From a bacterium (GTDB taxonomy: Bacteria; Desulfobacterota; Deferrisomatia; Deferrisomatales; BM512): a stretch of 47,207 nucleotides of DNA. Shown here piece by piece: positions 9,201 through 43,103 of the stretch. A program made the position numbers and the translations under genes. The stretch's first letter is position 1, and each line of letters begins with the position of its first letter. The notes beneath the pieces were generated by a model that had not been told where the DNA came from, searched no databases, and saw nothing but the letters and a program-made list of their open reading frames with translations. The stretch is taken from assembly GCA_004322275.1 (NCBI GenBank), contig SCTA01000023.1:1-47207 (forward strand), in the 5' to 3' direction.

Positions 9201-11075
9201 GACGCGATGGAGCTCGAGACGGATATTCAGTCCGACGACATAATCTACATCGACGCCGAGATGGCTGTGCAGCTCCCGAAACTGCTCGAAATGCTTGACG
9301 GCTTCAAGGCCTCCGTCAACTCCACCACGGGCTGGGTCAACGTGCCCATCTACGAATGGGACAACAAGCGCATCACCTCCGCGGTAATGGGCAACGACGG
9401 AACCTTCACCATCGACGAGACCGCCGACCTGTTCAAGGGCTATCTGAAGCTCGACCTCTCGACGATCTTCGACCCGGCCAGGATGTTCGACGGCAGCAAG
9501 CTCGCCGCCGACATAACCTCCGGCGCTTTCACCGTAACGCCTGTAGACGATTTCTACGGCCCCCGGAACCCGGATTACTTCGCGATAACCTTCGCGCCCG
9601 AGAGCCACGCGGGGACGCTCATTACGTCGGTCTTCGGCGACGCCGAGTTTGCTCTCAGGGACAGCAGATACGCCACCGACGGAATCGGCGGCTTCGCTAT
9701 CGAACCCGATACCAGGATTCTCCTGCCCTTCACGGCGACGGCAGGAGGAGCCCCGGAGTTCACTTACTACTTCGACTCTTTCCTTAACACCTGGGTGAAG
9801 GAAGAGCTCGGCCTCTCCGAGGAGAAGTTCGACAACCTCGGCGTAAGCCTGGGCTTCCCCTTCGACACCGGCACGGACGTTTCCTGGACCGAAACCAACG
9901 TCCCCGCCAGGGTTGATATGTGGGGAGACAGCTGGAGCCAAAGCGATACCCGCCCGATGGGGCTCGCCTTCACCTTCTCCTACCTCTATAGCGGAACCCT
10001 CTGGAATTCGCCGCTGACGGTTGGCGCGACCTGGACCAACGACAACATGTGGGTGCAGGGCTATCAGGGTTACACCGCCACCTCGACGGTTACCGCCATT
10101 GAAAGCGTGACCGTTCCTCTCAACACTTACGCCAACGCCATCAAGACCGTAACGGTGATCTCCGGCGCCGGCACCTCCTGGGAAGGCGCCCCCGCCCCCG
10201 CGGGAGTAAACAACTTCATAAACGGCACCCGCACGACATGGCACGCGCCGAACATGGGCATAGTCAAGATGGTTTACGACCATGCCGACGGAAAGCAGAC
10301 CGTGGCCGAACTTACCTCGCAGACCGACGGAACCGGCGCTCTTATCGCCAACTACGTCTACTTCAGGGCGAAGGAGGGCGGCTACCGAACCTACACGCTC
10401 ACCAACCCCTACGACGCTCCCGCCACGGTCTCTACGGAAACCTGCACGGTGCAGGCCAACGATCCGCTCCAGCCCCTGTACAGAAACTGGTGGACGGCGA
10501 TGCCCGAATCCATCGCCACGGGCTATAACGTGGTCTGCACGATAGACCCCGGCCCCGCGCCCACCACCTGGTATCTGGACTCCGACGGCGACGGCTTCGG
10601 CAGCCTCTTCGCAACCCCCGTGTTCGCCGTAGACCAGCCCGCCGGCTACGTAGCCAACCCCTTCGACTGCGACGACAGCGTCGCGGCGATAAACCCCGAC
10701 GCGACGGAGATACTGGGCGATTTCGTCGACAACAACTGCAACTTCCAGACCGACGAAGACGGAACCCTCTTTACCTGGTACTTTGACGGCGACGGCGACG
10801 GCTGGGGAGACCCCTTTAACTTCACCTTCTCCGATGTCCAGCCCGGAGGATACGTCAGCCAGCCTGGCGACTGCAGCAACTGGGACCCGAGCGTCAATCC
10901 CGGCGCAACGGAGATAAAGGACTGGCTGGACAACGACTGCGACCAGCAGGTAGACGAAGGCTTCTCCCAGTCGCAGGGCTTCTTCAACTTCAACCTCTAC
11001 CGGGCCGACGAAGACAACGGCCCCTTTGGCGGCGGAGGAGGCACCCAGCCGATGGGGCCCCGTCTCTTCAAATAA
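6297..11075 (+). CDS. Giant lipoprotein with PKD/REJ-like, carboxypeptidase-regulatory and MopE-type metal-binding modules
   Basis: A 1592-residue protein with GGAGAAGGAG before its ATG. The lipobox AVAC puts the lipidated Cys at 21, followed by a glycine-rich linker. Residues about 38-128 and 133-228 are two PKD/REJ-like Ig domains, each with the DSDGTIAAYSWSQ or DPDGTIAAWSWAQ signature. About 234-345 is a carboxypeptidase regulatory-like domain, repeated near 660-735 (GTIQGTVTDAGGNPLSGVLV). The long middle (about 740-1400) has no recognised family. The end holds two MopE-like putative metal-binding units: WYLDSDGDGFG near 1422 and WYFDGDGDGWG near 1491, each followed by DCDD or DC residues, NPGATE and DNDCD. 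The codon and base use match the neighbours. Likely an outer-membrane-anchored surface protein; ligand unknown. Confidence 0.8.
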   Translation: MLRALKFTLLMAIFLVLAVACGGGGGGDNGGGTENQAPSASAGLDQTVLEGATVTLNGSSSTDSDGTIAAYSWSQTTGPSVTLSSESAVQPTFTAPAVDAATVLTFTLTVTDDDGATDTDTVIVTVNDIGSGENLTPTASAGPDQTVDEGAAVTLNGSGSSDPDGTIAAWSWAQLAGPSVTLSDAGAASSTFTAPLVDTATVLTFELTVTDNESATASDTVTITVNNVAPVVPSTTINGVLRDRDGAPIAGATVVLQEQGAFSAGAPLPRANSKYSRTALINAARAKALSSTARMAALTSIAFTVTDENGFYTFADVAIPESGKLLISFDKSGYASYQELLTLTADAMITVQAMMAQAYVAPVQDASAVITVTADSTSTGVDNAGMNLTVPAGSLLDSSGAPVTGDVQVEVAVADPANEADRAIFPGSFAAADAGQDLNNPATTLESVAFAEITIRDVATGEEYTTIDPANPATVEFLLPVGIQDGTILNPNTGVAYVAGDKIPWWSYNEDMGVWEREDANPNDLITDPADPAYDADVVARADGLYVQANVVHFTWWNGDHPIDRSYLNVHVNDDSGNPLPNVLVKVNGVTYNSRARSGVTNASGDVNGLIVKGSVVASVTEQCQVTLVFNGIEYPQSVMDTPPQEQTVSVTYVIGIPGTIQGTVTDAGGNPLSGVLVYTDLMGSLRTDALGQYSIKVPYDRLVNVHVNGAVVEDRSGTATVATPVVTLDFTFPAIDLTSILAKLEGDETTPGDPIGAYKDLKQLADSGQLDNNGRALWAVLSFFELAEQAKTSGTSLNTLIESVGLKAYDDPVTGEFRIVSVTEACLEWDYSAPGPVCSVANPFYNPDFTMTAIPDYQNLAQLIQAKIDYSRAILAQINGPVTLVVDGMEVDDSDIIGLNAVLDLADGLLEYIQGYQFTLNTYAENGDQQFSPLNLQDLLQRPDVATRFANSKALLNQVFDGVVAYLDAMELETDIQSDDIIYIDAEMAVQLPKLLEMLDGFKASVNSTTGWVNVPIYEWDNKRITSAVMGNDGTFTIDETADLFKGYLKLDLSTIFDPARMFDGSKLAADITSGAFTVTPVDDFYGPRNPDYFAITFAPESHAGTLITSVFGDAEFALRDSRYATDGIGGFAIEPDTRILLPFTATAGGAPEFTYYFDSFLNTWVKEELGLSEEKFDNLGVSLGFPFDTGTDVSWTETNVPARVDMWGDSWSQSDTRPMGLAFTFSYLYSGTLWNSPLTVGATWTNDNMWVQGYQGYTATSTVTAIESVTVPLNTYANAIKTVTVISGAGTSWEGAPAPAGVNNFINGTRTTWHAPNMGIVKMVYDHADGKQTVAELTSQTDGTGALIANYVYFRAKEGGYRTYTLTNPYDAPATVSTETCTVQANDPLQPLYRNWWTAMPESIATGYNVVCTIDPGPAPTTWYLDSDGDGFGSLFATPVFAVDQPAGYVANPFDCDDSVAAINPDATEILGDFVDNNCNFQTDEDGTLFTWYFDGDGDGWGDPFNFTFSDVQPGGYVSQPGDCSNWDPSVNPGATEIKDWLDNDCDQQVDEGFSQSQGFFNFNLYRADEDNGPFGGGGGTQPMGPRLFK

Positions 11076-29953: not shown

Positions 29954-30065
29954 ATCTCCCTTCTTAAAGCTTCCCCAATCCCGGTAAAGACGCCGGTAAC
30001 GGTTAATTTTGTCAGATCGCCGGGAGCGCAGCTTGCGCCCCGTCAGGATATTTGGAGAAACGATC

Positions 30066-30623
30066 ATGTCTAACGACATCAAAAAAGATAAATTCGCTGA
30101 AAAACGCGCCGCCGTAGAGGGTAAATCCTCCGGCAGCCTCAAGCTTTTCGTCATCGGGGCGGCCGTGGTCGCCCTCGCGGTGGCCTCCCTCGTCGCCTAC
30201 TCCAGAACCGGAGACAAGTCCGGTGAAGCGGCAAAGGTGCAGGCGGCGACGCCCGTAAACGAATCGGGCGTCGTCGTCTCCTTCCCCCTTGCCGATTTTG
30301 AAGGCGGGCAGGCGAAGTTTTACGAGCACAAGACCGCCGACTCCATCACCGTCCGCTATTTCATCGTCAAGAGCGACGACGGCGTGACGAGGGCCGCCTT
30401 CGACGCCTGCGACGCCTGCTGGCCCCACGGTAAGGGCTACAGCCAGGACAAAAAGGAGATGGTCTGCAACAACTGCCAGATGCGTTTCCCGACAAGCAAG
30501 ATCAACGAGGTCAAGGGAGGGTGCAACCCCTCGCCGCTCGCCCGCACCGTCGAAAACGGGCAGCTCTTGATAAAGGTCTCCGATATCGAAGCGGGCAAGT
30601 CCTACTTCAATCTGAAAAAGTAG
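30066..30623 (+). CDS. DUF2318 (Fe-S/metal-binding) membrane-anchored protein
   Basis: The ATG at 30066 has GGAG upstream and gives 185 residues. One helix (about 25-45, LKLFVIGAAVVALAVASLVA) anchors a periplasmic DUF2318 domain with cysteines 115 and 118 (FDACDACWPHGKGY), 134 and 137 (VCNNCQMRFP) and 153 (KGGCNPSPL). DUF2318 proteins occur beside FTR1/P19 iron uptake and MacB-type ABC genes, as in Campylobacter jejuni cj1658-cj1665. Here the domain is followed by exactly such a permease and ATPase, but no FTR1 or P19 is in the window. A metal or redox role in the periplasm is likely; the cofactor is not known from sequence. Confidence 0.85.
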   Translation: MSNDIKKDKFAEKRAAVEGKSSGSLKLFVIGAAVVALAVASLVAYSRTGDKSGEAAKVQAATPVNESGVVVSFPLADFEGGQAKFYEHKTADSITVRYFIVKSDDGVTRAAFDACDACWPHGKGYSQDKKEMVCNNCQMRFPTSKINEVKGGCNPSPLARTVENGQLLIKVSDIEAGKSYFNLKK

Positions 30624-30632
30624 GGTAGCGCC

Positions 30633-31790
30633 ATGCGGCTCACCGATATCGCCCTTCTGAACCTGCGGCGGAGGAAGGCGAAAGCCGCCTTCCTTCTCAC
30701 CGGTCTTCTCATTGGCGTAACCACCGTCGTCGCCCTCCTTTCCATTACGGAGGCGATGTCCAGAAACGTCAACGACAAGCTGGAGCGCTACGGCGCGAAT
30801 ATACTCGTACTGCCCAAAAGCGAGACGCTCTCCCTTACTTACGGGGGCATCTCTCTCGGCGGAGTCTCCTTCGACATGAAGGAACTGAAGGAGGAAGACC
30901 TCGCCAAAATCCGGACTATAGAAAATTCTGCGAATATCGCCGCCCTCGGTCCGACCGTTCTCGGCGTGGCGGAGCTTTCCGGCCAGAAGGTGTTGACGGC
31001 GGGAGTGGATTTTTCCGTCTCTCACGTCCTCAAGCCCTGGTGGAAGCTTGTCGGAGATATTCCAGCCGGAGCCGGTGTCGTAGCCGGTTCGGAAGCCGCC
31101 CGAGTCTTTTTTCTGATACCCGGCGAGACGGTGAAAATCGCAGGCAAAGACCTGAAGGTTACCGGGGTTCTCGAACCCACAGGCTCCCAGGACGACCAGC
31201 TCCTCTTTACCGACCTTAAAACCGCCCAGGAGATATTCGGAAAGAAGGGAACCGTCTCTCTGGTAGAGGTCGCGGCGCTCTGCAAGGATTGCCCGGTTTC
31301 GGACATGGTTAACCAGATAGGGCGGATAATACCCGACGCCAACGTCATGGCCATCCAGTCGGTGGTCAAGTCGAGGCTGGAGACGATAGAGCACCTGCGC
31401 CGCTTTTCCTACGGCATAAGTGCGGTAGTTCTTTTCGTCGGCGGCCTCATGGTGCTGGTGACGATGATGGGAAGCGTCCGCGAGCGCACCGCCGAGATAG
31501 GCGTCTTTCGCGCCATAGGCTTTCGGAAATCCCACGTGATGCGAATAATCTTCACCGAATCGGCGATAGTCTCCCTCCTCGCGGGAATACTCGGCTATCC
31601 GGCCGGGCTCGCGGTAACGGCGGTTGCGCTTCCCTTCTTCGCGCCGGGGGAGGGCGCGGGAGTCGCCTTAGACCCGGTGCTGGCGCTCTTTGCGGTTTCC
31701 ATCTCACTCCTTCTGGGTCTCGTGGCCTCCATCTACCCGGCGGTAGCCGCCACCAGGATGGACCCCAACGAAGCCCTGCGCGCGCTTTAG
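30633..31790 (+). CDS. ABC transporter permease, MacB/FtsX type
   Basis: A 385-residue protein with the four-helix MacB/LolC plan. An N-terminal helix follows LTDIALLNLRRRKAKAAFLL, a periplasmic MacB_PCD domain spans about 45-255, and three C-terminal helices follow. RERTAEIGVFRAIGFRKSHV is the cytoplasmic coupling segment and PAVAATRMDPNEALRAL the usual end. Such permeases work as dimers with a LolD-like ATPase and act mechanically on periplasmic partners rather than carrying solute through the membrane. Its partners are probably the DUF2318 protein just upstream (9 nt) and the ATPase downstream (13 nt). Confidence 0.9.
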   Translation: MRLTDIALLNLRRRKAKAAFLLTGLLIGVTTVVALLSITEAMSRNVNDKLERYGANILVLPKSETLSLTYGGISLGGVSFDMKELKEEDLAKIRTIENSANIAALGPTVLGVAELSGQKVLTAGVDFSVSHVLKPWWKLVGDIPAGAGVVAGSEAARVFFLIPGETVKIAGKDLKVTGVLEPTGSQDDQLLFTDLKTAQEIFGKKGTVSLVEVAALCKDCPVSDMVNQIGRIIPDANVMAIQSVVKSRLETIEHLRRFSYGISAVVLFVGGLMVLVTMMGSVRERTAEIGVFRAIGFRKSHVMRIIFTESAIVSLLAGILGYPAGLAVTAVALPFFAPGEGAGVALDPVLALFAVSISLLLGLVASIYPAVAATRMDPNEALRAL

Positions 31791-31803
31791 AAGGAGAACG
31801 AAG

Positions 31804-32478
31804 ATGAGCTTACTGATAGTAAAAAACCTGCAAAAATCCTACGGCTCGGGCGATTCCGAGGTAAAGGCGCTCCGCGAGGCCACCTTCGAGGTGGAGGAGG
31901 GCGAGTTCGTCTCCATAATGGGCGAATCGGGGTCGGGGAAATCCACCCTGCTCTCGATCCTCGGGGCTCTCAACACTCCCACCGCCGGAAACCTGAACGT
32001 AGCCGGGGTGGAGGTCTACAAACTCGGTCAGGAGAAGAGGGCGGATTTTCGGCGCGAATTCCTGGGGTTCGTCTTTCAGAACTTCCGCCTTATCCCCTAC
32101 CTGACGCTGGGGGAGAACACCATGCTACCCCTCGCGACCCTCTCCATCTCGAAAAAAGAGAAGGTCGAAAAGGCGCGAAAGGCGCTTGAGCACGTGGGGC
32201 TGGCGAGCAAGATGAACCGCCTGCCGAGCCAGGTCTCCGGCGGCGAGCAGGAGAGGGCGGCGGTCGCAAGGGCCATCGTCAACGAGCCCCCGATACTCCT
32301 CGCGGACGAGCCCACCGGCAACCTCGACTCCCGCACGGCGGGCGAGGTGATGGGAATGTTAAAAGAGCTTAACTCCCACGGCACGACCGTCGTCATGGTC
32401 ACCCACTCCGAGAAATGCGCGGCGATAGCCACGCGGCATCTTCTTGTCGCCGACGGAGTGGTGAGCGAGATGCGCTGA
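31804..32478 (+). CDS. ABC transporter ATP-binding protein, LolD/MacB type
   Basis: A 224-residue ATPase with AAGGAGAA before the ATG. Walker A is GESGSGKST (40-48), then the Q-loop FVFQNFRLIPYLT. The signature reads VSGGEQERAAVARAI (Glu in place of the usual second Gln/Arg pattern), Walker B ILLADEPTGNLD, and the H-loop VMVTHSEK. All catalytic residues are present. It powers the permease encoded just upstream. A strong bidirectional-looking terminator ends the operon. Confidence 0.95.
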   Translation: MSLLIVKNLQKSYGSGDSEVKALREATFEVEEGEFVSIMGESGSGKSTLLSILGALNTPTAGNLNVAGVEVYKLGQEKRADFRREFLGFVFQNFRLIPYLTLGENTMLPLATLSISKKEKVEKARKALEHVGLASKMNRLPSQVSGGEQERAAVARAIVNEPPILLADEPTGNLDSRTAGEVMGMLKELNSHGTTVVMVTHSEKCAAIATRHLLVADGVVSEMR

Positions 32479-32550: not shown

Positions 32551-32676
32551 GGCCCTGCGGGTTTTTAAAATCGGTCTTAAGAAATTTGTGAGAGAAACCT
32601 CCGGGACTTTTATATATACTCCTTCGGACTCGGTTACAGGCAGGCACTTCATGAAGGGTTCCGGACTCAAGTTTTG

Positions 32677-34647
32677 ATGGATAGCGAAAAAAAGGAAGAG
32701 AAGCCGAAGGTTTTCACCCTCGCCAGCGACGAGGGCAGGTACAGGCTTCTGGTTGAGAACGCCCACGTGGGCATCTGCGTCTGTCAGGGCGACAGGGTCT
32801 GTTACGCGAACAGGGCTTTCGCCGCCATGACTGGCTACACCCTCCTTGAACTTACCTCCCATAGCCTCCTGCGCATCGTCCACCAGGAGGATCACCCCCA
32901 CGTAATCCGTGAATACTCCCGCCGCATGCGCGGCGAAAACGAGGCCTCAAGCTACGAGTTTCGCGGAGTGACCAAAGAGGGGCGGGTAAAATGGCTCCTC
33001 ATGAGCGCCATCCGCATCGACTGGGACGGCAAACCCGCGGCTCTCGATTTCGTCACCGACCTCAGCGACCGCCGGTACATGGAAGAGACGCTCCGGAAAA
33101 GCGAGGCGCGCTACCGCTCCCTGACCGACGACGTCCTCGACAACTCCGCGGTCGGCCTCGTGATTCTCGACGGCGAACTGAAAGTGGCCTGGGCCAACCG
33201 CACCTTCGGTGAATTTTTCAGCATTCAAAGGGAGCTGACTATCGGGCTTTCGGCCGGGAGGGTGCTTGAGACCCTTCAAAAAGCCGCCACGGACCCCTCG
33301 GGTTTTCTCCTTTCGGCTAGAGACGCGCTGAAAGGTGAAGGGCGGACGGCCACCTTTGAATTTTCGGCGAAACCGGCTCCGGGGAAAGAGGAGCGCCACA
33401 TTGAGTGCCGGACGCAGCACGTCGGGGAGGGGCTTTTCAGCGGCGGGCGCATACTCCATTTTTACGACATCACCCCCCAGAAGACGGCGCAGCTTGAAAA
33501 CGCCGCCATGCAGGCGAAGCTCCTCCAGTCGCAGCGGCTGGAGACGGCGGGCACCCTTGCCTGCGGCATAGCGCACGACTTCAACAATATACTCCAGTCC
33601 ATCTGCCTCAACGCGCATCTTTTGTCTTCTCAAAGCGCCCTGGCGGAGCAGGACCAGCTCTATCTTTCGCGCATAGATTCCGCCGCCGGGCGGGGGACAA
33701 AGCTGGTAAACCAGCTACTCGCTTTCAGCAGGGGAATGCAGGCTTCCTTCGACGCCATATCGCTTTCGGAGGCTGTTTTAAAAGGCGTGGAGATGCTCGG
33801 CTGGATATTGCCCGAAAACATAAAGGTGGTGACCGAATTGTCGCCGGAGGAGTGCGCCATTCTCGGCGACGAGGGGCAGATAGAGCAGATACTCCTGAAT
33901 CTGGCGATGAACTCCAGAGACGCCATGCCGGAGGGCGGAGTTTTCAGGGTAACGGCCGGGCCGGTGAAGGTATCGGGGAGAAACAGGGAGGTGGAGCCGG
34001 GGGACTACGTCCTTCTCACAGTCGAGGACAGCGGTCACGGCATGGAGGAATCCACTCTTTGCAGAATCTACGACCCCTTCTTCACCACGAAGGAGGTCGG
34101 CAAGGGCTCCGGTATAGGCATGTCGGTCGTTTACGGCATCGTAAGAGACCACGGCGGTCAGATTTTCTGCAACTCGACGCCCGGAAAGGGAACCGTCTTC
34201 AGCATTTACTTCAAGCGGGCAGGCGTAGCGCGTATCCACCGGAAGGCAAAGGCGGCGGAACCGGAGGTTCTGCCCGGAAAGAGAGAAGGGGTGCTCGTGG
34301 TCGACGACGAGCCCTTCATCGCCGAGAGCCTTTGCGACGTACTCAAGGCGAACGGCTACGAGGCGCTGGCGGCCAACAGCGGCGAGGCTGCGCTGGAACT
34401 CTACAAGGAGCAGTCCGGAAAGATCGACCTCGTCGTCCTCGATCTCGGCATGCCGGGCATGGGGGGTAAAGAGTGCCTCGAATGCCTCAGGAAGATGGAC
34501 GGCGAACTGAAAATTATCGTCGCCAGCGGCTACGACGCGGCCACTCACGCCGGGGAAGTGAAAAAACTCGGAGCCAAAGCCTTCATCTCCAAACCCTACA
34601 GCATCTCGGGGCTTCTCAGGACTATCGAGGAGATACTGGAAGGGTAG
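32677..34647 (+). CDS. PAS-PAS hybrid histidine kinase
   Basis: A 656-residue cytoplasmic kinase without membrane segments. Two PAS domains lie at about 20-145 (RYRLLVENAHVGICVCQGD) and 150-265 (SAVGLVILDGELKVAWANR). The dimerisation domain has phospho-acceptor H300 in the GIAHDFNNILQSI box. The ATPase domain has NLAMNSRDAMPEGG, VEDSGHGM and the YDPFFTTKEVGKGSGIGMSV stretch. A C-terminal receiver (about 545-656) has DDEP, D589 (VVLDLGMPGMGG) and SKPYS. It senses an intracellular signal through PAS; no ligand can be named. No output gene is adjacent. Copy H of the repeat follows within 7 nt of the stop. ATG at 32677 is preferred to the overlapping TTG; the ribosome site is weak. Confidence 0.92.
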   Translation: MDSEKKEEKPKVFTLASDEGRYRLLVENAHVGICVCQGDRVCYANRAFAAMTGYTLLELTSHSLLRIVHQEDHPHVIREYSRRMRGENEASSYEFRGVTKEGRVKWLLMSAIRIDWDGKPAALDFVTDLSDRRYMEETLRKSEARYRSLTDDVLDNSAVGLVILDGELKVAWANRTFGEFFSIQRELTIGLSAGRVLETLQKAATDPSGFLLSARDALKGEGRTATFEFSAKPAPGKEERHIECRTQHVGEGLFSGGRILHFYDITPQKTAQLENAAMQAKLLQSQRLETAGTLACGIAHDFNNILQSICLNAHLLSSQSALAEQDQLYLSRIDSAAGRGTKLVNQLLAFSRGMQASFDAISLSEAVLKGVEMLGWILPENIKVVTELSPEECAILGDEGQIEQILLNLAMNSRDAMPEGGVFRVTAGPVKVSGRNREVEPGDYVLLTVEDSGHGMEESTLCRIYDPFFTTKEVGKGSGIGMSVVYGIVRDHGGQIFCNSTPGKGTVFSIYFKRAGVARIHRKAKAAEPEVLPGKREGVLVVDDEPFIAESLCDVLKANGYEALAANSGEAALELYKEQSGKIDLVVLDLGMPGMGGKECLECLRKMDGELKIIVASGYDAATHAGEVKKLGAKAFISKPYSISGLLRTIEEILEG

Positions 34648-34914: not shown

Positions 34915-35622
34915 ATGCTCCAGTTCACCGTTCCCGACGATACCTTCGAGATGATCATCCGCCTTTCCGCCGCTGCGGCGGCCGGAGGGGTGATAGGCCT
35001 TGAGCGCTACATTCAGGGGCGCTCGGCGGGGCTTCGCACCCATGTGCTTGTCTGCGTGGGCAGCGCCCTTTTCACCCTCTTTTCCCTCATCGCGCCTCGT
35101 TATAACGAGGTCGCGGGAGCCGGCGCGGACCCCGGAAGGATCGCCGCGCAGATAGTCACCGGCATCGGCTTTCTCGGCGCGGGCGTCATCCTGAAACAGG
35201 GGGTGACTGTGCGCGGCCTGACCACGGCGGCCTGCCTCTGGGTTGCCGCGGGGATAGGCATGACGGCTGCGGGGGGCCTTTACTTCCTCACCCTCTTCGT
35301 CACGGCGCTCACGGTGGTCACGCTCTTCGGCCTGAATCTTTTCGAGATGAAATTTCACAACACCATCTACCGCCATGTAATGGTGGTGACGGACCTTGGC
35401 GAGGATGTCTCGGAGATAATCGAGAAGGTCAACTCCTCGGGCGTCACCGTTTTCGCCTGCGATTCGGCGCGCAATTTCGAGACGGGCAGGATGACCGTGG
35501 ACATGGAAGTGCGCCTCCTTCGGCGCGGCTCGACTCAGCCCATCGCCGACAAGACGCTAAAGGCGCTTCAAGCCTCCGGTATTCCGGTGCATTCTTTCTC
35601 GTGGAGGCGCGAAGCCTCTTAG
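34915..35622 (+). CDS. MgtC/SapB family membrane protein
   Basis: A 235-residue inner-membrane protein. Four to five helices carry the family marks AAGGVIGLERYIQGRSAGLRT, QIVTGIGFLGAGVILKQG and VRGLTTAACLWVAAGIGM. The C-terminal 85 residues form a soluble ACT-like domain. MgtC proteins affect magnesium homeostasis and the F1Fo ATP synthase in pathogens; in free-living bacteria the role is poorly known. It is alone between repeat copy H and the pseudo-AAA operon, with about 120 nt on its 3' side. Confidence 0.88.
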   Translation: MLQFTVPDDTFEMIIRLSAAAAAGGVIGLERYIQGRSAGLRTHVLVCVGSALFTLFSLIAPRYNEVAGAGADPGRIAAQIVTGIGFLGAGVILKQGVTVRGLTTAACLWVAAGIGMTAAGGLYFLTLFVTALTVVTLFGLNLFEMKFHNTIYRHVMVVTDLGEDVSEIIEKVNSSGVTVFACDSARNFETGRMTVDMEVRLLRRGSTQPIADKTLKALQASGIPVHSFSWRREAS

Positions 35623-35744: not shown

Positions 35745-36626
35745 ATGCACAGAAAACTTGAAAAAATATTCTACGAGGTAAAAAAGCCCACCCTGAAATG
35801 GGACGACATCGGTGGTTTCGCGGATGTGAAGAAGATCGTGAAGGAAATGGTCTCCCTGCCGCTGATGAAGCCCGAGCTGATGGCGAAAGTCGGGCTTGAG
35901 CGCCCCGCCGGGGTGATGCTCTGGGGGCCGCTCGGCGTGGGTATCACCATGCTGGCCGAGGCCGCCGCCACGGAGGCGGGCGTCTCCTTCGTCTACGTTT
36001 CAGGGCAGGAGATGCTCGGAAAGCCGGAGCAGATCTCCGAAGCCTTCCACGATGCGGTTCACGAGGCTCCCTGCGTGCTTTTCATCTCCGACACCGAGTG
36101 GCTCTGTCCGCGCGCGGGTTGTTCCTACGAGTGGGGGCCGGGAAATTTCCGCGGAATCCCGCCCACCTTCGCCGACAGGGAACTGTCAGAGCTCTTCATC
36201 CGGGAGATCGACGCCATTCAGGCCCACAAGAACGTGATGCTTGTCGGCTCCTGCTACCGCATCGACACGGTCGATCAGGCGATAATCAAGGAAAAGCGCC
36301 GCTTCAACCGCAAGATCTTCGTCCACCCGCCGAAGGCCATAGACCGCGAGGGGATGATCAATATCTATCTTAAGAAGATGCCCTCCGTCGACCCGAAGGT
36401 GAGCGCGAAGGAGCTTAGCCTGCGCACCGAGGGGTACGTGGGCTGGGACGCGGAGAGCCTTTGCAAGCGCGCCGCGCTGGAGGCGGTGAAGGACGATCGG
36501 GACGTTGTTTCGATGGCGGATTTCGAGGCGGCCCTTTTGCAGGTCACTCCCTGGCTGACCCCCGACATGACGGAAAAATACAACGAGATTGACAAGAATG
36601 ACTGCCCCCATCACTACGCCTTCTGA
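35745..36626 (+). CDS. AAA pseudo-ATPase (Walker A lysine and Walker B acid lost)
   Basis: The ATG at 35745 gives MHRKLEKIFYEVKKPTLKWDDIGG, the usual entry to a Cdc48/FtsH-type AAA domain. The open frame upstream is not family-like. The 293-residue protein keeps the AAA plan, but Walker A reads GPLGVGIT (61-68), so Lys is Ile67. Walker B reads VLFISDTEW, Ser-Asp in place of Asp-Glu. Sensor-1 Asn is replaced (GSCYRID). The arginine-finger region RRFNR and the lid (GYVGWDAESLCKRAALEAV) remain. An insertion with cysteines 121 and 126 lies after Walker B. It should not hydrolyse ATP, yet the frame is intact. It overlaps the FmdE-like gene by 29 nt and forms an operon with it and the permease. Confidence 0.83.
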   Translation: MHRKLEKIFYEVKKPTLKWDDIGGFADVKKIVKEMVSLPLMKPELMAKVGLERPAGVMLWGPLGVGITMLAEAAATEAGVSFVYVSGQEMLGKPEQISEAFHDAVHEAPCVLFISDTEWLCPRAGCSYEWGPGNFRGIPPTFADRELSELFIREIDAIQAHKNVMLVGSCYRIDTVDQAIIKEKRRFNRKIFVHPPKAIDREGMINIYLKKMPSVDPKVSAKELSLRTEGYVGWDAESLCKRAALEAVKDDRDVVSMADFEAALLQVTPWLTPDMTEKYNEIDKNDCPHHYAF

Positions 36627-37050
36627 GAGGGACGACTTCTACGCCTTTTTAAAGCGCCTTCACGGCCATCGCTGCCCCATGTCGATTCTCGGGGCGAGGC
36701 TGGGGCTGGCGGCGCGTGAGAGGGTGGGCAGACACGGCGAGGACGGCGACGTGGCGGCGGTCTATTACCACCGCACCTGCGCCATCGACGGCATTCAGGC
36801 CGCGCTCGGCACCACCTCGGGCAACACCAACATCGAAGTGCGCCCCGAGGGGATTCACCGCCTCGAAGCGGTGAACAAGACAAAAAGAATGTACGTCACC
36901 GTATCCCTGACGGAGGAGGCCCTCGGCCGCGGCAGGGAGTACGGCGAGCTGCGGCGCTCCGGCGGCGACAAGGCGAGGATGGAAGAGATTCTCAAAGGCC
37001 TCGAATCCGCGCCGGAGAGCGAACTGATTTGCATCGAGGCCCATAGCTGA
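36598..37050 (+). CDS. FmdE-like (formylmethanofuran dehydrogenase subunit E family) protein
   Basis: A 150-residue protein from the ATG at 36598, which lies inside the end of the pseudo-AAA gene, so translation is probably coupled. The FmdE signature is clear: FLKRLHGHRCPMSILGARLG (His22, His24, Cys26) and HRTCAIDGIQAALGTTSGN (Cys61). In other FmdE proteins these residues line a metal site. The C-terminal zinc finger found in some members is absent. In bacteria without formylmethanofuran chemistry the role is unknown. Neighbouring permease and pseudo-ATPase suggest metal or cofactor handling, as inference. The stop TGA overlaps the ATG of the next gene by one base. Confidence 0.85.
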   Translation: MTAPITTPSERDDFYAFLKRLHGHRCPMSILGARLGLAARERVGRHGEDGDVAAVYYHRTCAIDGIQAALGTTSGNTNIEVRPEGIHRLEAVNKTKRMYVTVSLTEEALGRGREYGELRRSGGDKARMEEILKGLESAPESELICIEAHS

Positions 37051-38000
37051 TGGAGCTTGCCCGCGAGTTTTTCCGCATCGTCCTCCAGGAAGCGGGGAAG
37101 ATGTGGTGGTTCACCCTTCTCGGCATAACCATCGCGGCCCTGATAAAGACCTACCAGCTCGACCGCCACATAAGGCAGTACGTCGGAAAGTTCGGACACT
37201 TCTCGATACTGGCGGCAGTGGGGATAGGCCTGGTCTCGCCCCTTTGCTCCTGCGGCATACTACCCGTGATTATTCCGATGGCGCTCGCGGGAGTGCCTTT
37301 GCCCCCGCTGATGGCGCTGCTCACAACCAGCCCGGTTATGGACCCCACCTCGTTTGTCCTCACGATGGGGGCTCTCGGGCCGGAGCTGGCCTGGTGGAAA
37401 CTTGGGGGGGCCGCCTTTCTCGGACTCCTCTCGGGGTACGCGACGCATTTTTTTATAAGGACGGGCATTTTTTCTGGAAACCTTATCAGGCTAAAGCCAG
37501 TACATAACGAGAAGGGCGATCTTGCCAGCGCCTATGAGATCGGGTGCGCCAACGGAATCTTTCTTCGCACCATGAAGGTTGTGCAAAGAGAAAGCAAATT
37601 CCGCTTTTTCCTCGACAGGTTTTTCGACATCGGGGTCTTCGTGGGTTTCTGGGTTCTGATGGCGATCTTCATCGAGGCGGCGATTCACATCTTCGTACCG
37701 GTGAGCGCCGTAACCTGGCTGGTAGGAAAAAAAGGACCCTTCTCCGTGGTCTGGGCGGCGCTGATAGGGATTCCCCTGCCGCTCCATCAGATACCGGCGA
37801 TTCCGGTGCTGGCGGGGTTAAAGGCGAAGGGGATGGCGGTTGGCGCGGATATTGCTTTTTTAATGGCGGGCCCGGTAACGTCGATTCCGGCGATGGCCGC
37901 TCTTTATGCGATATTTATTCCCAGAGTTGTGGTAGCATTTATCGCAACAGGGTTATTGGGCTCCATCTTCCTCGGCCTTCTGCGGATGGCTGTTGGTTGA
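37050..38000 (+). CDS. DUF318 (YraQ/ArsP-like) permease
   Basis: A 316-residue inner-membrane protein with eight or so helices in two similar halves. The first half holds SPLCSCGILPVIIPMALAG (Cys66, Cys68) and TTSPVMDPTSF, the marks of the DUF318 permeases that include the organoarsenical exporter ArsP and the SO_0444-type metal efflux proteins. The second half repeats the pattern (IGIPLPLHQIPAIPVLAGL, AGPVTSIPAM) without cysteines. It probably exports a metal, metalloid or thiol-reactive compound; the substrate is not determinable. Its start overlaps the FmdE stop in TGATG. Last gene of the three-gene operon. ArsR-type regulators are not seen nearby. Confidence 0.88.
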   Translation: MELAREFFRIVLQEAGKMWWFTLLGITIAALIKTYQLDRHIRQYVGKFGHFSILAAVGIGLVSPLCSCGILPVIIPMALAGVPLPPLMALLTTSPVMDPTSFVLTMGALGPELAWWKLGGAAFLGLLSGYATHFFIRTGIFSGNLIRLKPVHNEKGDLASAYEIGCANGIFLRTMKVVQRESKFRFFLDRFFDIGVFVGFWVLMAIFIEAAIHIFVPVSAVTWLVGKKGPFSVVWAALIGIPLPLHQIPAIPVLAGLKAKGMAVGADIAFLMAGPVTSIPAMAALYAIFIPRVVVAFIATGLLGSIFLGLLRMAVG

Positions 38001-38071: not shown

Positions 38072-39535
38072 ATGAGACGGCTCGCTATCTCTTTACTCGC
38101 CGCCACGATGGCTGTTCCGGCGCTGGCCGCCAGCCCGATCTTCACCGACATAACCGCAAAGTCCGGCACCGGCGACCCCGGAAACGGCAAGGGAGTGGCT
38201 TTCGCCGACATCGACAACGACGGCGACTGGGATCTCTACGTTTCCAACAAGGGCGGCCCCAACAAGCTCTTCCGCAACGACGGTAAGGGCGAGTTCACCG
38301 ACATCACCGCGCAGGCGGGCGACAACGTCGGCGACGCGGGCTTCGTCATGGGCTCGGTCTTCTTCGACTACGACAACGACGGGTGGGTGGATCTCTACCT
38401 CCCTAAGGGCGGCCGCTACGAGATTGAAGCCAACCGCCTCCTCAGGAACGTCGGCGGCAAGTTCGTGGACGTGACGGAAAAGGCCGGAGTAGGCTCCAAG
38501 GAATTCACCTACGCAGCCGCCTCCGCCGACTACGACCACGACGGCTATCTCGATCTCTACCTCGCCAACTACGGCGTCAACAAGACCAACACCCTCTACC
38601 GCAACAACGGCGACGGCACCTTCACCGACGTTACCGCCAAGGCGGGGGTGGGCGACCGCTCCTGGTCCTGGATGGCCACCTGGGCCGACGTGAACGGCGA
38701 CGGCTGGGACGATCTCTACGTCGTCAACGGGCGCTACCCCGCCGGTGAGCCGAACACCCTCTACATCAACAACGGCGACGGCACCTTCAAGAACGTCTCC
38801 CGCGAATCCGGAGCGGACGATCCGAACTGGGGCCTCGGCGCAGCCTTCAACGATCTCGACAGGGACGGCGACCTCGACCTGTTCGTCTCCAACTACGTCG
38901 GGCCGAACGCCCTTTACTACAACGACGGCGCCGGCCACTTCACCAAGGCCGATCCCGTCAAGGTCGGGCTCAATCACGTTGGCTGGGGCAAAGGTCCCTC
39001 CTGGGGCGACGTTGACAACGACGGCGACGTAGACCTCTACGAAGGCGACTGCAAGGCCGCCAACCAGCTCTACATCAACAACGGCAAGGGCGTCTTCACC
39101 GACATGACCAAAGACAACCCCGCTGTCGCCTGCGCCGCCGTCCGCTCCAAGGGCACCGCCCTCGCCGACATCGACAGCGACGGCGATCTCGATCTCTACG
39201 TCATCAACTGGGCCGCTCCGAACGTGCTGGCCCTCAACAACACCGATAACGGCGATTACCTTAAGGTTCGCCTCACCGGCAGCGTCTCCAACCACATGGC
39301 GGTCGGTTCCCGCGTGTGGGTGCGCGACGGTAAGAAGCTGGTCGGCATGAGCGACCTCCAGACCTCCTCGGGCTTCTGCTCGCAGCCGCCCCAGGAACTC
39401 CACTTCGGCCTCTCCGCCGCCAGGACCTACACCGTCGAAGTCCGCTTCCCCAGCGGCCTTCGCAAGGTGGTCGAGAACGTAAAGGCCGGGCAGACCATCA
39501 CCATCGAGGAGCCCGGTGAAGTGGCGAAGCGCTAA
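38072..39535 (+). CDS. Secreted FG-GAP/VCBS repeat protein with ASPIC/UnbV C-terminus
   Basis: A 487-residue exported protein with AAAGGAGA before its ATG and a signal peptide cut at VPALA. Seven or so FG-GAP/VCBS repeats follow, each with a calcium-type loop (DIDNDGDWDLYVSNKGG, DYDNDGWVDLYLPKGG, DYDHDGYLDLYLANYG and so on) and a LFRNDGKGEFTDIT-like strand. They form a beta-propeller. The last 90 residues match the ASPIC/UnbV domain of CRTAC1 proteins. Probably a calcium-binding surface or periplasmic protein. It is followed by, and overlaps by 20 nt, the lipoprotein gene at 39516. The terminator for this gene lies inside that next gene. Confidence 0.88.
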   Translation: MRRLAISLLAATMAVPALAASPIFTDITAKSGTGDPGNGKGVAFADIDNDGDWDLYVSNKGGPNKLFRNDGKGEFTDITAQAGDNVGDAGFVMGSVFFDYDNDGWVDLYLPKGGRYEIEANRLLRNVGGKFVDVTEKAGVGSKEFTYAAASADYDHDGYLDLYLANYGVNKTNTLYRNNGDGTFTDVTAKAGVGDRSWSWMATWADVNGDGWDDLYVVNGRYPAGEPNTLYINNGDGTFKNVSRESGADDPNWGLGAAFNDLDRDGDLDLFVSNYVGPNALYYNDGAGHFTKADPVKVGLNHVGWGKGPSWGDVDNDGDVDLYEGDCKAANQLYINNGKGVFTDMTKDNPAVACAAVRSKGTALADIDSDGDLDLYVINWAAPNVLALNNTDNGDYLKVRLTGSVSNHMAVGSRVWVRDGKKLVGMSDLQTSSGFCSQPPQELHFGLSAARTYTVEVRFPSGLRKVVENVKAGQTITIEEPGEVAKR

Positions 39536-40634
39536 TCCGAAAAGCATTTCAAATAAAAGAAGGTCGCGGCTTCGCGGCCTTCTTTTTTGCCTTCTCGCCG
39601 CCCTCGCTTTTTTCGGGTGCGGCGCCCGAAAAGCGGCGGTTGAGACGGGAGGCGGCGGTTTGACCGGCTCCGGGCTCATCGTCGAGGGGCTGGTGTCGCT
39701 CGAAAACAGGGGTTTCACCGGGGCCAGGGTCTACGCCTACCTTCCGGAATCCTTCACCGGGGGTGGCGAGCCGGTTCCGGCGGGAACCGCCGAAAGCGGG
39801 GTCAACGGGCGCTTCTCGATGGAACTTCCGGAGGGGAAATACATCCTTCTGGCGAGGGCTCCGGGCAAATTCGCCTGGTTCGGCAGAAACCCCCTTAAGG
39901 TCTCCGCGCACCAGCGCGGCCTGAGCCTTCCTCTCGTAGCGGCGGAGGGAGTGACCACCGCCGCCGTGGCGGAAGGCGAGGAAAACATCAGGGGGAGGGT
40001 GCTCCTAGGCGGGAAACCGGCAGCGGGAGTGCGGGTTTCCGCCCATCTTCGGGCCGACGCGGGCTTTCGGGGCCAGCCCTACGCCTCCAGCGCTCTGACA
40101 GCCTCCGACGGTGAGTACAAACTGGCGCTCGATCCGGGGGTTTATTTTATCACGGCCCGTAAGCGCGCTACCGGCCTCGAAGTCGGCCCGCTCACGCCCG
40201 GCGACCTCTTCGGCGTCCTTCCCGAGCTGCCGCTCAAGGTCGGCCGGGGCAAAGAGCAAAAAAGCGACATAGAGCTCGTCGAGCTTCCCTCCTACGAGCA
40301 GCAGGCCCGTTACAGGACGCGCTTCGCGAAGCTGGAGGGGACGATTCGCACCGGCGAGGGCAACCCCGCAGAGGGTTTTCGCGCCTGTCTCTACGACAAT
40401 CCGAGAATGCTCGGCGAGCCTCTCGCCATCTCGGCTCCAACCGGCCCCGACGGCAGGTTTACCATCTCCGTCTCGGTGGTCGGGCGCTACTACCTTGGCG
40501 CGCGCGAGCACCTCGGCGGCCCGCCGGTAAGCGGGGAGAGGGTCGGCTTCGCCAGGGACGCTCCGGAGGGTTACGAGATTGCGCCCGGCAAGGTCTTCGA
40601 GTCCCTCGAAGTCATTCTGGTGGTCGCGCCGTGA
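39516..40634 (+). CDS. Lipoprotein with carboxypeptidase-regulatory-like repeats
   Basis: A 372-residue protein starting at GTG with GAGGAG five bases upstream, inside the end of the FG-GAP gene. The first 20 residues are basic, then LLFCLLAALAFFGC gives a lipobox-like cut before Cys (FFGC, not a perfect match). Three or so Ig-like modules of the carboxypeptidase-regulatory or bacterial invasin type follow, with the recurring pattern of a sugar-like loop then GRFSMELPEGKYILLARA, GEYKLALDPGVYFITARK and GRFTISVSVVGRYYLGARE. It is probably anchored to the outer membrane. The basic region of the signal peptide is encoded by a terminator-like hairpin (39558-39580). It overlaps the next gene by 4 nt (GTGA). 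Confidence 0.75.
   Translation: MKWRSANPKSISNKRRSRLRGLLFCLLAALAFFGCGARKAAVETGGGGLTGSGLIVEGLVSLENRGFTGARVYAYLPESFTGGGEPVPAGTAESGVNGRFSMELPEGKYILLARAPGKFAWFGRNPLKVSAHQRGLSLPLVAAEGVTTAAVAEGEENIRGRVLLGGKPAAGVRVSAHLRADAGFRGQPYASSALTASDGEYKLALDPGVYFITARKRATGLEVGPLTPGDLFGVLPELPLKVGRGKEQKSDIELVELPSYEQQARYRTRFAKLEGTIRTGEGNPAEGFRACLYDNPRMLGEPLAISAPTGPDGRFTISVSVVGRYYLGAREHLGGPPVSGERVGFARDAPEGYEIAPGKVFESLEVILVVAP
39558..39590 (+). terminator. Terminator-shaped hairpin inside the signal-peptide codons
   Basis: AGAAGGTCGCG pairs with CGCGGCCTTCT (one wobble) and is followed by TTTTTT. It would end transcription of the FG-GAP gene. It also encodes RRSRLRGLLF of the next protein. If active, the downstream three genes would be attenuated unless ribosomes or a second promoter relieve it. 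Confidence 0.6.
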
Positions 40635-42442
40635 AGAGAGCCGCGTTTCCGGTGCTTCTTTTCTTTCTCGCGGGGTGCGCCTCCCTGCCTGCCCAAAAGG
40701 GAGGCGACAATCGGGAACTTAACTGGTCCGGAGAGATTCGCCTCGACAAGACCCTCAAACTTTCGCGCGGCACGAGTCTCACAATCGCGCCCGGCACCGT
40801 TATCCGCCTCGGGTGGGCCGACGAGGACGGCGACGGCCTCGGCGACACCTCCATTCATCTGGAGGGCGGCAAGCTGACCTCCCTCGGCACGCCGGAAGCG
40901 CCGATACTCTTCACCTCCGGGCAGGCCCCGGCCCAGGCCGGTAAGTGGGGCGAACTCCGGGTGGATTTCGGCTCGGTGGAGCTGAAATACACCGTCATTG
41001 AGGGCTCCACGCGGGGGCTTCACCTGCACTTTTGCAGCGGCCTCGTCGAGGATTCGATCCTCCGGCAGAACCACGACGGCACGCGGATAGGCGAATCGAC
41101 GATGGTTTTTCGCCGCTGCCTCTTTTCCGGTCAGGAGGGGAAAGGGTTCAACTCCCGCGCCTCCAGAAACCTCGTGGAAAACTGCCTTTTCAGGGGCAAC
41201 AAGCGCGGCATCTTCCTCTTCGAGGGTGACGAGGGCAGTGTCTTTAGGGACAACGTTTTCACCGGCAACGAGATACCCTTCCGGCTCGGCGATTTTTACG
41301 AGGGAGAATTGAAACTTGCGCCCAACAGGTGGGACGACCCCACGGACCAGTACCGGCCCGAAGGCTCCACCGCCCGCGTAGAGTTTGTAAACGCGCCGGT
41401 CACGGGCGCGGGGCCCGAAAACTGGCCGCTTCTTTGGGTCAAGTGGAAAGTCCCGATGGAAGGCTACGCCGACGCGCTGACGGCGGACGAAAGCGGCGTC
41501 TACGCGGTGTCTTTCGGCGGAGAACTCAAGCGGCTCGCCCTCTTCGACGGCTCGCTCCTCGCCTCGGCGAAGCTTCTCGACACCCTCGATTCCCCGCCGG
41601 CTCCCGGAAGGGTAAACAATAAACCTTATCTGGCCGTCCAATGCTGGAACAGGGGAATTTACCTCCTCGACGGCGAGACCCTGAAAGAACTGGACAGTTT
41701 CGTCGAAACATCTTCTCCCGCGGACGACCACCGCCAGTCGTCGCCGCTGATTGCGGGCGGGAAACTCTTCGCCGCTACCTGGGCGGGCAAGGTGAGGGGG
41801 TTCGCGATAACCGGCGGGGGGCTTGAAAACCTTTGGGAATTCGCCGCCGGAGGCCCCTTCCGGGGGGACCTCGCCCTTACGGCGAGAGGAGAACTGCTCG
41901 CCCCCTCCGGGGACGGGTCGCTTTACGCTCTCGGGATGGACGACGGCGCTAAAAAGTGGGAGTACAAGGCGAGAGCGCCCCTTCTTTCCGGCGCGGAAAT
42001 TTTTGAGGAAAAGGTTTTTATTGCCGATAAGGGGGGAGTTCTGCATTCGCTCGGCGAAAACGGAAAGCTTCTCTGGAAGAGCGCTCTTTCCGGCCCCGCG
42101 TGGTACGCGAGGCCGCTTCTGGCCGAAGGGGTGCTCTATCAGGGCGACGATGACGGAGGTTTGTCCGCCTTCGACCCCGCAAGCGGCAGTCTCCTCTACC
42201 GGGTTCGCCTGGAAGGGGGAATAAGGTCGAGACCCGCGCTGGCGGGAGGGACGCTCGCGGTAGCCACCGCCAAGGGGTTTCTCTACCTTCTTCGCGCAGC
42301 GGACGGGTTTATTCTCGACAGGCTTGAGATCGGCGAATCGTCGCTCGCCTCGCCCGCCGTCCTCGGAAAACTCCTCTTCGCGGGCTCGCGGCCCGGCATG
42401 ATTTTTGGATTAAACATTGAGAGTGCGGGAAAAAAGAATTAA
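40631..42442 (+). CDS. Lipoprotein with beta-helix and PQQ-type beta-propeller domains
   Basis: A 603-residue protein starting at GTG in a GTGA overlap with the previous stop. The lipobox LLFFLAGC places Cys at 16. Residues 30-260 resemble a right-handed parallel beta-helix (LTIAPGTVIRLGWADEDGDG, RNLVENCLFRGNKRGIFLFE, GSVFRDNVFTGN). Residues 280-600 are a PQQ/quinoprotein-like propeller with repeats of the type GSLYALGMDDGAKKWEYKA and GGLSAFDPASGSLLYRVRL. No haem or catalytic motif is visible, so it is likely structural or binding. It lies in the middle of the exported-protein cluster and is presumably co-translated with the gene before it. Confidence 0.78.
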   Translation: MKRAAFPVLLFFLAGCASLPAQKGGDNRELNWSGEIRLDKTLKLSRGTSLTIAPGTVIRLGWADEDGDGLGDTSIHLEGGKLTSLGTPEAPILFTSGQAPAQAGKWGELRVDFGSVELKYTVIEGSTRGLHLHFCSGLVEDSILRQNHDGTRIGESTMVFRRCLFSGQEGKGFNSRASRNLVENCLFRGNKRGIFLFEGDEGSVFRDNVFTGNEIPFRLGDFYEGELKLAPNRWDDPTDQYRPEGSTARVEFVNAPVTGAGPENWPLLWVKWKVPMEGYADALTADESGVYAVSFGGELKRLALFDGSLLASAKLLDTLDSPPAPGRVNNKPYLAVQCWNRGIYLLDGETLKELDSFVETSSPADDHRQSSPLIAGGKLFAATWAGKVRGFAITGGGLENLWEFAAGGPFRGDLALTARGELLAPSGDGSLYALGMDDGAKKWEYKARAPLLSGAEIFEEKVFIADKGGVLHSLGENGKLLWKSALSGPAWYARPLLAEGVLYQGDDDGGLSAFDPASGSLLYRVRLEGGIRSRPALAGGTLAVATAKGFLYLLRAADGFILDRLEIGESSLASPAVLGKLLFAGSRPGMIFGLNIESAGKKN

Positions 42443-42482: not shown

Positions 42483-43046
42483 ATGTTCAGAAAAATAATA
42501 CTTCTTCTTGCTGTGGTGTTTGCTTTCGCGCAGCTTTCAAACGCCTGCGTGGGCAAATCGCTGATCATCGGCACCGACGGCACCGTCAGGTCGAAGGTCG
42601 TAGCCAACGTGCTCGCCATCCTCATCAACGAGAGAACCGGGACAACCGTTGAGATCTCCGATTACGACGGCCCCGAGGGTCTTTTCAAGGAGATGACCAC
42701 CGGCGACGTGGACCTCGGCCTCATGTATGCCGGAGAAGCGCTGATTCGGGGCCAGCAGCCCCTTCCCCCCGACCCAAAAGGGGCGCTTGAGGCGGTGAAG
42801 AACTATCACCAGGAAAAGTTCAACCTGGTATGGCTCCCCGAGCTGGGCTTCTCCGAGAGCGGCAACCCGTACTCGCTCGCCGCTTCCGTCGCCCAGAAGC
42901 ACACCCTTAAAAAGTTCCCCGCCCTCTCAAGGCTCATCGCCAAGACGCAGGGCAAGCTCTCCGACAAGACCGTAGACGCCCTCGGCAGCGCCCCGAGCAT
43001 TTCAAAAGCAGTGAGAGATTTCCTTAAAGCAGAAAAACTAATCTGA
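42483..43046 (+). CDS. Truncated OpuAC-like periplasmic binding protein
   Basis: The ATG at 42483 has GGAGA nine bases upstream and starts a signal peptide (MFRKIILLLAVVFAFAQLSN, then AC at 21-22, possibly lipidated). The 187 residues carry SLIIGTDGTVRSKVVANVLAILINERTG and VDLGLMYAGEALI, like the first lobe of glycine-betaine binding proteins (OpuAC/OsmF), and a helical end. A full binding protein has about 270-300 residues, so the second lobe is short. No ABC transporter genes are adjacent, which argues for a sensing or stabilising role rather than uptake. A terminator follows. Confidence 0.62.
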   Translation: MFRKIILLLAVVFAFAQLSNACVGKSLIIGTDGTVRSKVVANVLAILINERTGTTVEISDYDGPEGLFKEMTTGDVDLGLMYAGEALIRGQQPLPPDPKGALEAVKNYHQEKFNLVWLPELGFSESGNPYSLAASVAQKHTLKKFPALSRLIAKTQGKLSDKTVDALGSAPSISKAVRDFLKAEKLI

Positions 43047-43068: not shown

Positions 43069-43103
43069 AAAGAGGGCGTAAATCAGCGCCCTCTTTTTTT
43101 TTG
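43069..43103 (+). terminator. Rho-independent terminator
   Basis: AAAGAGGGCG (43069-43078) pairs with CGCCCTCTTT (43086-43095), 10 bp, then six further T. It closes the exported-protein cluster. Confidence 0.9.

Follow-up and report, generated by a model that had tools for sequence, protein, structure and literature searches.

A conserved AAA pseudo-ATPase gene in an overlapping triad with genes of an FmdE-like protein and an ArsP-type permease, and its possible part in delivery to the outside of the cell

Genes of the locus

The window analysed here, a stretch of 47,207 nucleotides from a bacterium of the Deferrisomatales (contig SCTA01000023.1), carries three overlapping genes on its forward (+) strand. 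The first (35745-36626) encodes a protein of 293 aa made of a CDC48/PAN-type AAA domain and its lid. Its reading frame opens with an ATG at 35745, preceded by an AAGG-type site, and closes with a TGA ending at 36626; this start is supported by the family alignment, in which Met1 never varies and His2 hardly ever does. The second (36598-37050) encodes a single-domain FmdE-like protein (PF02663), from an ATG at 36598, with a TTG at 36589 as possible alternative start, to a TGA ending at 37050. The third (37050-38000) encodes a permease of 316 aa of the ArsP_1/DUF318 family. The overlap of the first two genes is 29 nt long (36598-36626, + strand), and holds the end of the AAA protein, DCPHHYAF and its stop codon, in one frame and the FmdE start, MTAPITTPSE, in the other. 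The overlap of the last two is 1 nt, base 37050 being both the last of the FmdE TGA and the A of the permease ATG. The coordinates, strand and both overlaps given in a previous, sequence-only reading of this DNA were found again upon re-examination, and the overlaps support the translational coupling that it had proposed.

That reading had also described an operon of three genes ending at 38000. The linkage of the three holds, but not the end, as genes run on the same strand to ~43046. The permease is followed, with spacings of 71, −20, −4 and ~40 nt, by genes for a CRTAC1-type predicted secreted protein with FG-GAP repeats and UnbV_ASPIC (38072-39535), a CarboxypepD_reg/DUF4198-like predicted lipoprotein (39516-40634), a predicted lipoprotein joining a NosD-type beta-helix to a PQQ-type propeller (40631-42442), and an OpuAC-like predicted periplasmic protein (42483-43046; ATG at 42483 chosen from the alignment with relatives, the frame being open from a TTG at 42417). 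The NosD beta-helix scored 30.5 bits with PF05048 (cut-off 23.6), which places it in the family, and signal-peptide or lipobox-like N-termini were recognised by eye in all four proteins. A strong intrinsic-terminator-like hairpin (43069-43096, + strand, 11 bp stem and T-run) closes the unit. The triad heads a cluster of seven genes, which end at ~43046 and are presumably read as a single transcript. No formylmethanofuran dehydrogenase subunit was seen within this unit, and Rfam gave no RNA element in the 34-44 kb part of the window.

Just upstream, on the same strand, lie genes for a hybrid PAS histidine kinase (32674-34647) and an MgtC-family protein (34915-35622), with a hairpin after MgtC at 35603. 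Further upstream, a Cys-rich protein (DUF2318-like by eye), an FtsX-like permease and a LolD-type ABC ATPase are encoded consecutively (30009-32478), and are possibly another metal-related export unit. The gene at 6297-11075 encodes a predicted surface lipoprotein of very large size that contains repeat domains; the C-terminus of this lipoprotein resembles a Cys/Asp "putative metal-binding" motif.

The AAA protein and its family

The AAA fold and lid are readily recognised in the first protein (Pfam AAA, 3.3e-18; AAA_lid_3, 5e-12), and a phmmer comparison with the archaeal VCP-like ATPase 5VC7 gave 1.7e-74. An AlphaFold2 model (mean pLDDT 94.3) has a classical AAA domain, whose best fold matches are PAN and p97 D2. 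Compared to these classical AAA ATPases (5VC7, PAN 3H4M, p97 D2), fold, lid and overall sequence are alike, whereas the present protein is a single domain, without N-domain, with a tail of its own (DCPHHYxF) and with changes in every one of Walker A, Walker B, sensor 1, GAD and pore loop. In the alignment with 5VC7, Ile67 replaces the Walker A Lys, Ser115-Asp116 the Walker B Asp-Glu, Tyr171 the sensor-1 Asn and Trp234 the GAD Ala; part of the aromatic pore loop is missing.

All these changes recur in 52 relatives, none of which, under about five phylum labels, has intact Walker motifs or any of the functional residues (Walker A Lys, Walker B Asp-Glu, sensor-1 Asn; 0/52). At position 67, 50 sequences have Ile and two have Met; at position 115, 51 have Ser and a single one Thr. 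Neither Tyr171 nor Trp234 varies, and a deletion in the pore loop is common to all 52. The losses of the Walker A Lys and the sensor-1 Asn that had been read from the window alone are thus family traits. The claim that the Walker B acids are lost was half right: the Asp has become Ser or Thr, but one acid, the invariant Asp116, is kept in place of the Glu (motif "SD"). The P-loop Gly residues and Thr68 are, like Asp116, invariant or nearly so, and D286, C287, P288, H289, H290, Y291 and F293 of the tail are invariant in the 52 homologues. The nearest active AAA proteins in related genomes retain GPPGxGKT and DE[IL]D. The substitutions are genuine and not due to chance, and they mark the AAA protein, judged from its sequence, as a real pseudo-ATPase. 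The frame, said earlier to be intact, is also under constraint: dN/dS was about 0.06-0.16 against five relatives, which indicates strong purifying selection and no decay.

To see how far the family extends, 84,980 species genomes were scanned with degenerate patterns for two peptides, a procedure by which distant members may be missed. It returned 58 loci, mostly from metagenome-assembled genomes (MAGs), labelled Deltaproteobacteria/Desulfuromonadales, Deferrisomatales, Nitrospirae, Desantisbacteria, "Proteobacteria" and, in one case, an Actinomycetota MAG. Family members are 53-90% identical to the window protein, and the 52 proteins form one clade in the tree (support 100/100). Of 395 genomes drawn evenly from the window's phylum, 22 had the protein at 1e-70 or better, and all matches listed reached at least 420 bits. 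A search of plasmids with the AAA protein brought up, among the matches listed, only active CDC48-type relatives of at most 36% identity. The predicted dead AAA protein is strongly conserved in several groups, mostly of metal-reducing-type bacteria. Inactive AAA proteins, in the machines known so far, usually act alongside active paralogues. A stand-alone, single-domain AAA protein that has lost the whole ATP cycle and is nevertheless highly conserved would represent a testable case of reuse of the AAA fold as an ATP-free scaffold.

The two partners and their linkage in other genomes

The FmdE-like protein belongs to PF02663 (66.2 bits, cut-off 22.9; Pfam 4e-18), a family whose role has been unsettled since its 2010 structures. 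The His/Cys metal site expected of it is borne out: its predicted ligands, placed by comparison with 2GLZ, are H22, H24, C26 and C61, invariant in 19/19 homologues and lying in two invariant motifs (HGHxCPM and tCAxDG). In 2GLZ, Zn or Ni is ligated by His15, His17, Cys19 and Cys55, and metal-ion transporter genes adjoin most PF02663 genes (PMC2954224). The HxHxC...C site, the single core domain and the frequent metal-transporter neighbours are shared with 2GLZ and the single-domain B8FYU2_DESHY; the triad protein differs by CPM, invariant in the 19 homologues compared, where 2GLZ has CPD, and by its tight coupling to the pseudo-AAA gene. PF02663 thereby gains a concrete set of partners.

The permease falls in ArsP_1 (PF03773, 116.6 bits, cut-off 32.3; Pfam 1.5e-33), and C66 and C68 of its SPLCxCG motif are invariant in 19/19 homologues. 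Its model (pLDDT 83.5) matched no solved fold under E 0.001 with Foldseek. It shares the family fold and the membrane Cys motif with SO_0444 (NF033936), a distant relative required under Cu or Zn stress (PMC3219624), and with SaoE of the selenocysteine-assisted organometallic system (NF040736), but is found in different gene company. Membership of either group was rejected, the scores being far under both cut-offs (93.3 bits versus 300 for the SO_0444 Cu/Zn efflux model, 83.6 versus 325 for SaoE).

The three genes proved to be neighbours well beyond the window. Among 45 testable loci (full-length AAA gene followed by 1.6 kb or more of sequence), AAA, FmdE and ArsP genes were contiguous in 34, 33 of them by automatic criteria and one (L051) in which the FmdE frame starts unusually far upstream. 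With this result and the absence of intact Walker motifs from the family, the sequence-only reading passed both of the refuting checks that it had set. Geothermobacter hydrogeniphilus HR-1 is the cultured strain among the bacteria that carry the triad. The arrangement is present in the deep branches L071/L073 and L041/L044, with 4 changes on the tree. Where the AAA gene stands apart, a profile search detected full-length permease homologues elsewhere in 9 of 10 genomes (1e-50 to 1e-97), and the same partner families surround most of these split permeases: CRTAC-NosD-ArsP-CarbD-SpdSynTM in L096 and similarly in L095, NosD-PhnD-YeeE-ArsP in L101 and L105, and DUF1573-ArsP-NosD-like-TP_methylase-U32 in Nitrospirota L098-L100. 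None of these partners was seen in the stretch available around the permease of L094 and L097. Of 12 genomes with a separate AAA gene, FmdE was detected in 4 but not in the other 8, so that the scaffold does not always need FmdE. All four secreted families of the window are conserved neighbours of the triad, the NosD-type protein being the commonest and adjacent across lineages, and almost all partner families are brought together in one stretch of G037 (PhnD, several NosD, ResB, OpuAC, AAA, U32, CarbD, NapH-type ferredoxin and CRTAC). The permease subfamily, scored at 300 bits or more, was present in 12/13 AAA-bearing genomes versus 0/46 other relatives, a signal inflated by kinship and due mostly to one order; outside that order, the figures were 1/2 versus 0/45.

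Other genes recur near the system. A strict link with UbiV/U32 was dropped: matches occur in 12/13 AAA genomes, but within the window's own family they are a distant paralogue beside MoeA/MobB-like genes, and, besides G037, few cases have U32 genes close to the system. In two Nitrospirota (L098, 9082-11845; L099, 2648-5305), a tetrapyrrole methylase and two U32/UbiV-like proteins adjoin the permease, a possible cofactor link. In two others (L102, 4514-7191; L103, 4711-6886), FmdE sits between UPF0280-like (by eye) and PALP-family, cysteine-synthase-like genes, with CbiM nearby in L103. In 24 loci (in the range L031-L068), the gene before that of the AAA protein, on the same strand, encodes a protein of ~107 aa without Pfam match. 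Upstream and divergent in many of these loci, in Desulfuromonadales, are the thiazole-synthesis genes thiG, thiH, thiF and thiE (by eye), which we considered and treated as local synteny. An ~800 aa membrane protein with a weak spermidine-synthase domain accompanies the cluster in 17 loci (for instance L043, 13978-16392).

A possible route for a metal, and competing explanations

The four secreted partners shift the likely purpose of the system from plain detoxification to delivery outside the cell. The larger cluster as a whole probably moves a metal or a metal-sulfur ligand outwards. We give a probability of about 40% to the reading in which periplasmic NosD-like proteins receive a metal or metal-sulfur species from an ATP-independent scaffold, a metal-binding FmdE protein and an exporter. 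The triad would form the cytoplasmic and inner-membrane head of the seven-gene transcription unit. FmdE would bind a soft transition-metal ion, or a metal-sulfur or thiolate complex, at its His-x-His-x-Cys...Cys site, and the pseudo-AAA protein would be a scaffold or docking platform using no ATP, whose DCPHHYxF tail, likely an extra ligand or a docking peptide, may pass the cargo between FmdE and permease. Export would fall to the ArsP-type permease, one membrane segment of which contains the Cys-x-Cys, and outside the cargo would be taken up by the NosD-like beta-helix, the propeller lipoproteins and the CRTAC1-type protein for the maturation or loading of an extracytoplasmic protein. Assembly as a hexamer or otherwise, cargo, direction, handover and client are putative elements of this scheme. 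Against it stand the permease's weak tie to metal-transporter families, the genomes in which FmdE was not detected, a cluster in which no conserved client enzyme was seen, and a co-occurrence signal that comes mostly from one order. In a more detailed version, a dead AAA ring or scaffold that bears a C-terminal CPHH metal-ligand tail and is fixed across several phyla would load the ArsP-type exporter from an FmdE metallochaperone, and the cargo would serve to assemble NosD, CRTAC1 and propeller lipoproteins into an extracytoplasmic metal or metal-sulfur protein complex; this version appears doubtful, if worth retaining.

The nearest analogy is NosDFYL, in which NosD and an ABC exporter are needed for CuZ assembly (PMC7558416). 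Both systems combine a NosD-type periplasmic beta-helix with a membrane exporter, but in the conserved cluster an ArsP permease stands in the place of NosFY, and NosD is fused to a PQQ-type propeller. By this analogy the triad cluster may work like NosDFYL without being NosDFYL, given that no clade II NosZ was found: TIGR04246 had no match in G000 and none over cut-off in 59 relatives, so clade II NosZ was rejected as the client. No conserved client enzyme was seen in the cluster. In the family libraries and the literature searched, a partial coverage that included FmdE with NosD and pseudo-ATPase AAA, no described system had this combination of genes, in agreement with the sequence-only reading; the cluster points to a pathway of transport and maturation that these sources do not describe as a unit.

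The main rival is plain efflux. FmdE would act as chaperone for a toxic metal or metalloid, which the permease would then expel; the secreted proteins, although transcribed together with the triad, would be separate or sequestering. The ArsP_1 family covers organoarsenical and Cu/Zn efflux proteins. The frequent position of FmdE genes beside metal transporters also fits such a role (PMC2954224). We nevertheless hold it to be rather unlikely: four predicted secreted families accompany the triad across lineages, even where the permease has been relocated, no metal-responsive regulator gene was seen in the window's unit, and a dead AAA protein would be unusual in an efflux pump. The cargo could also be sulfane sulfur, a thiol or a metal-sulfide destined, by analogy with NosDFY, to an extracytoplasmic metal-sulfur centre. 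A YeeE-type Sulf_transp adjoins the system in three lineages (L058, L101, L105), L058 has in addition a Se/S carrier and an aminotransferase-V, and PALP-family genes lie near the triad or adjoin FmdE; these links are patchy and missing from the window's own unit, and cysteine-synthase-like genes are common, which leaves a sulfur cargo unlikely.

The pseudo-ATPase had been proposed to be a scaffold or a nucleotide sensor. As a sensor, it would bind or slowly hydrolyse nucleotide through Thr68, Asp116 and Glu118, and the intact fold with its conserved P-loop Gly, Thr68 and Asp116 speaks for this. None of the 52 relatives has the Walker A Lys, the Walker B Asp or the sensor-1 Asn of an ATP cycle, however, and the Trp for the GAD Ala and the loss of the pore loop are found in 52/52, making a sensor quite improbable. 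From sequence comparison, the scaffold role is favoured, because all nucleotide-contacting motifs are altered except the P-loop Gly and Thr, and an invariant Trp occupies the adenine-side GAD. As for the neighbourhood being inherited synteny with no common mechanism, most triad loci do come from related Desulfuromonadales and Deferrisomatales, but L071/L073 and L041/L044, which branch deeply, carry the triad too and its partners re-associate in two-locus arrangements, so that this explanation is very hard to credit.
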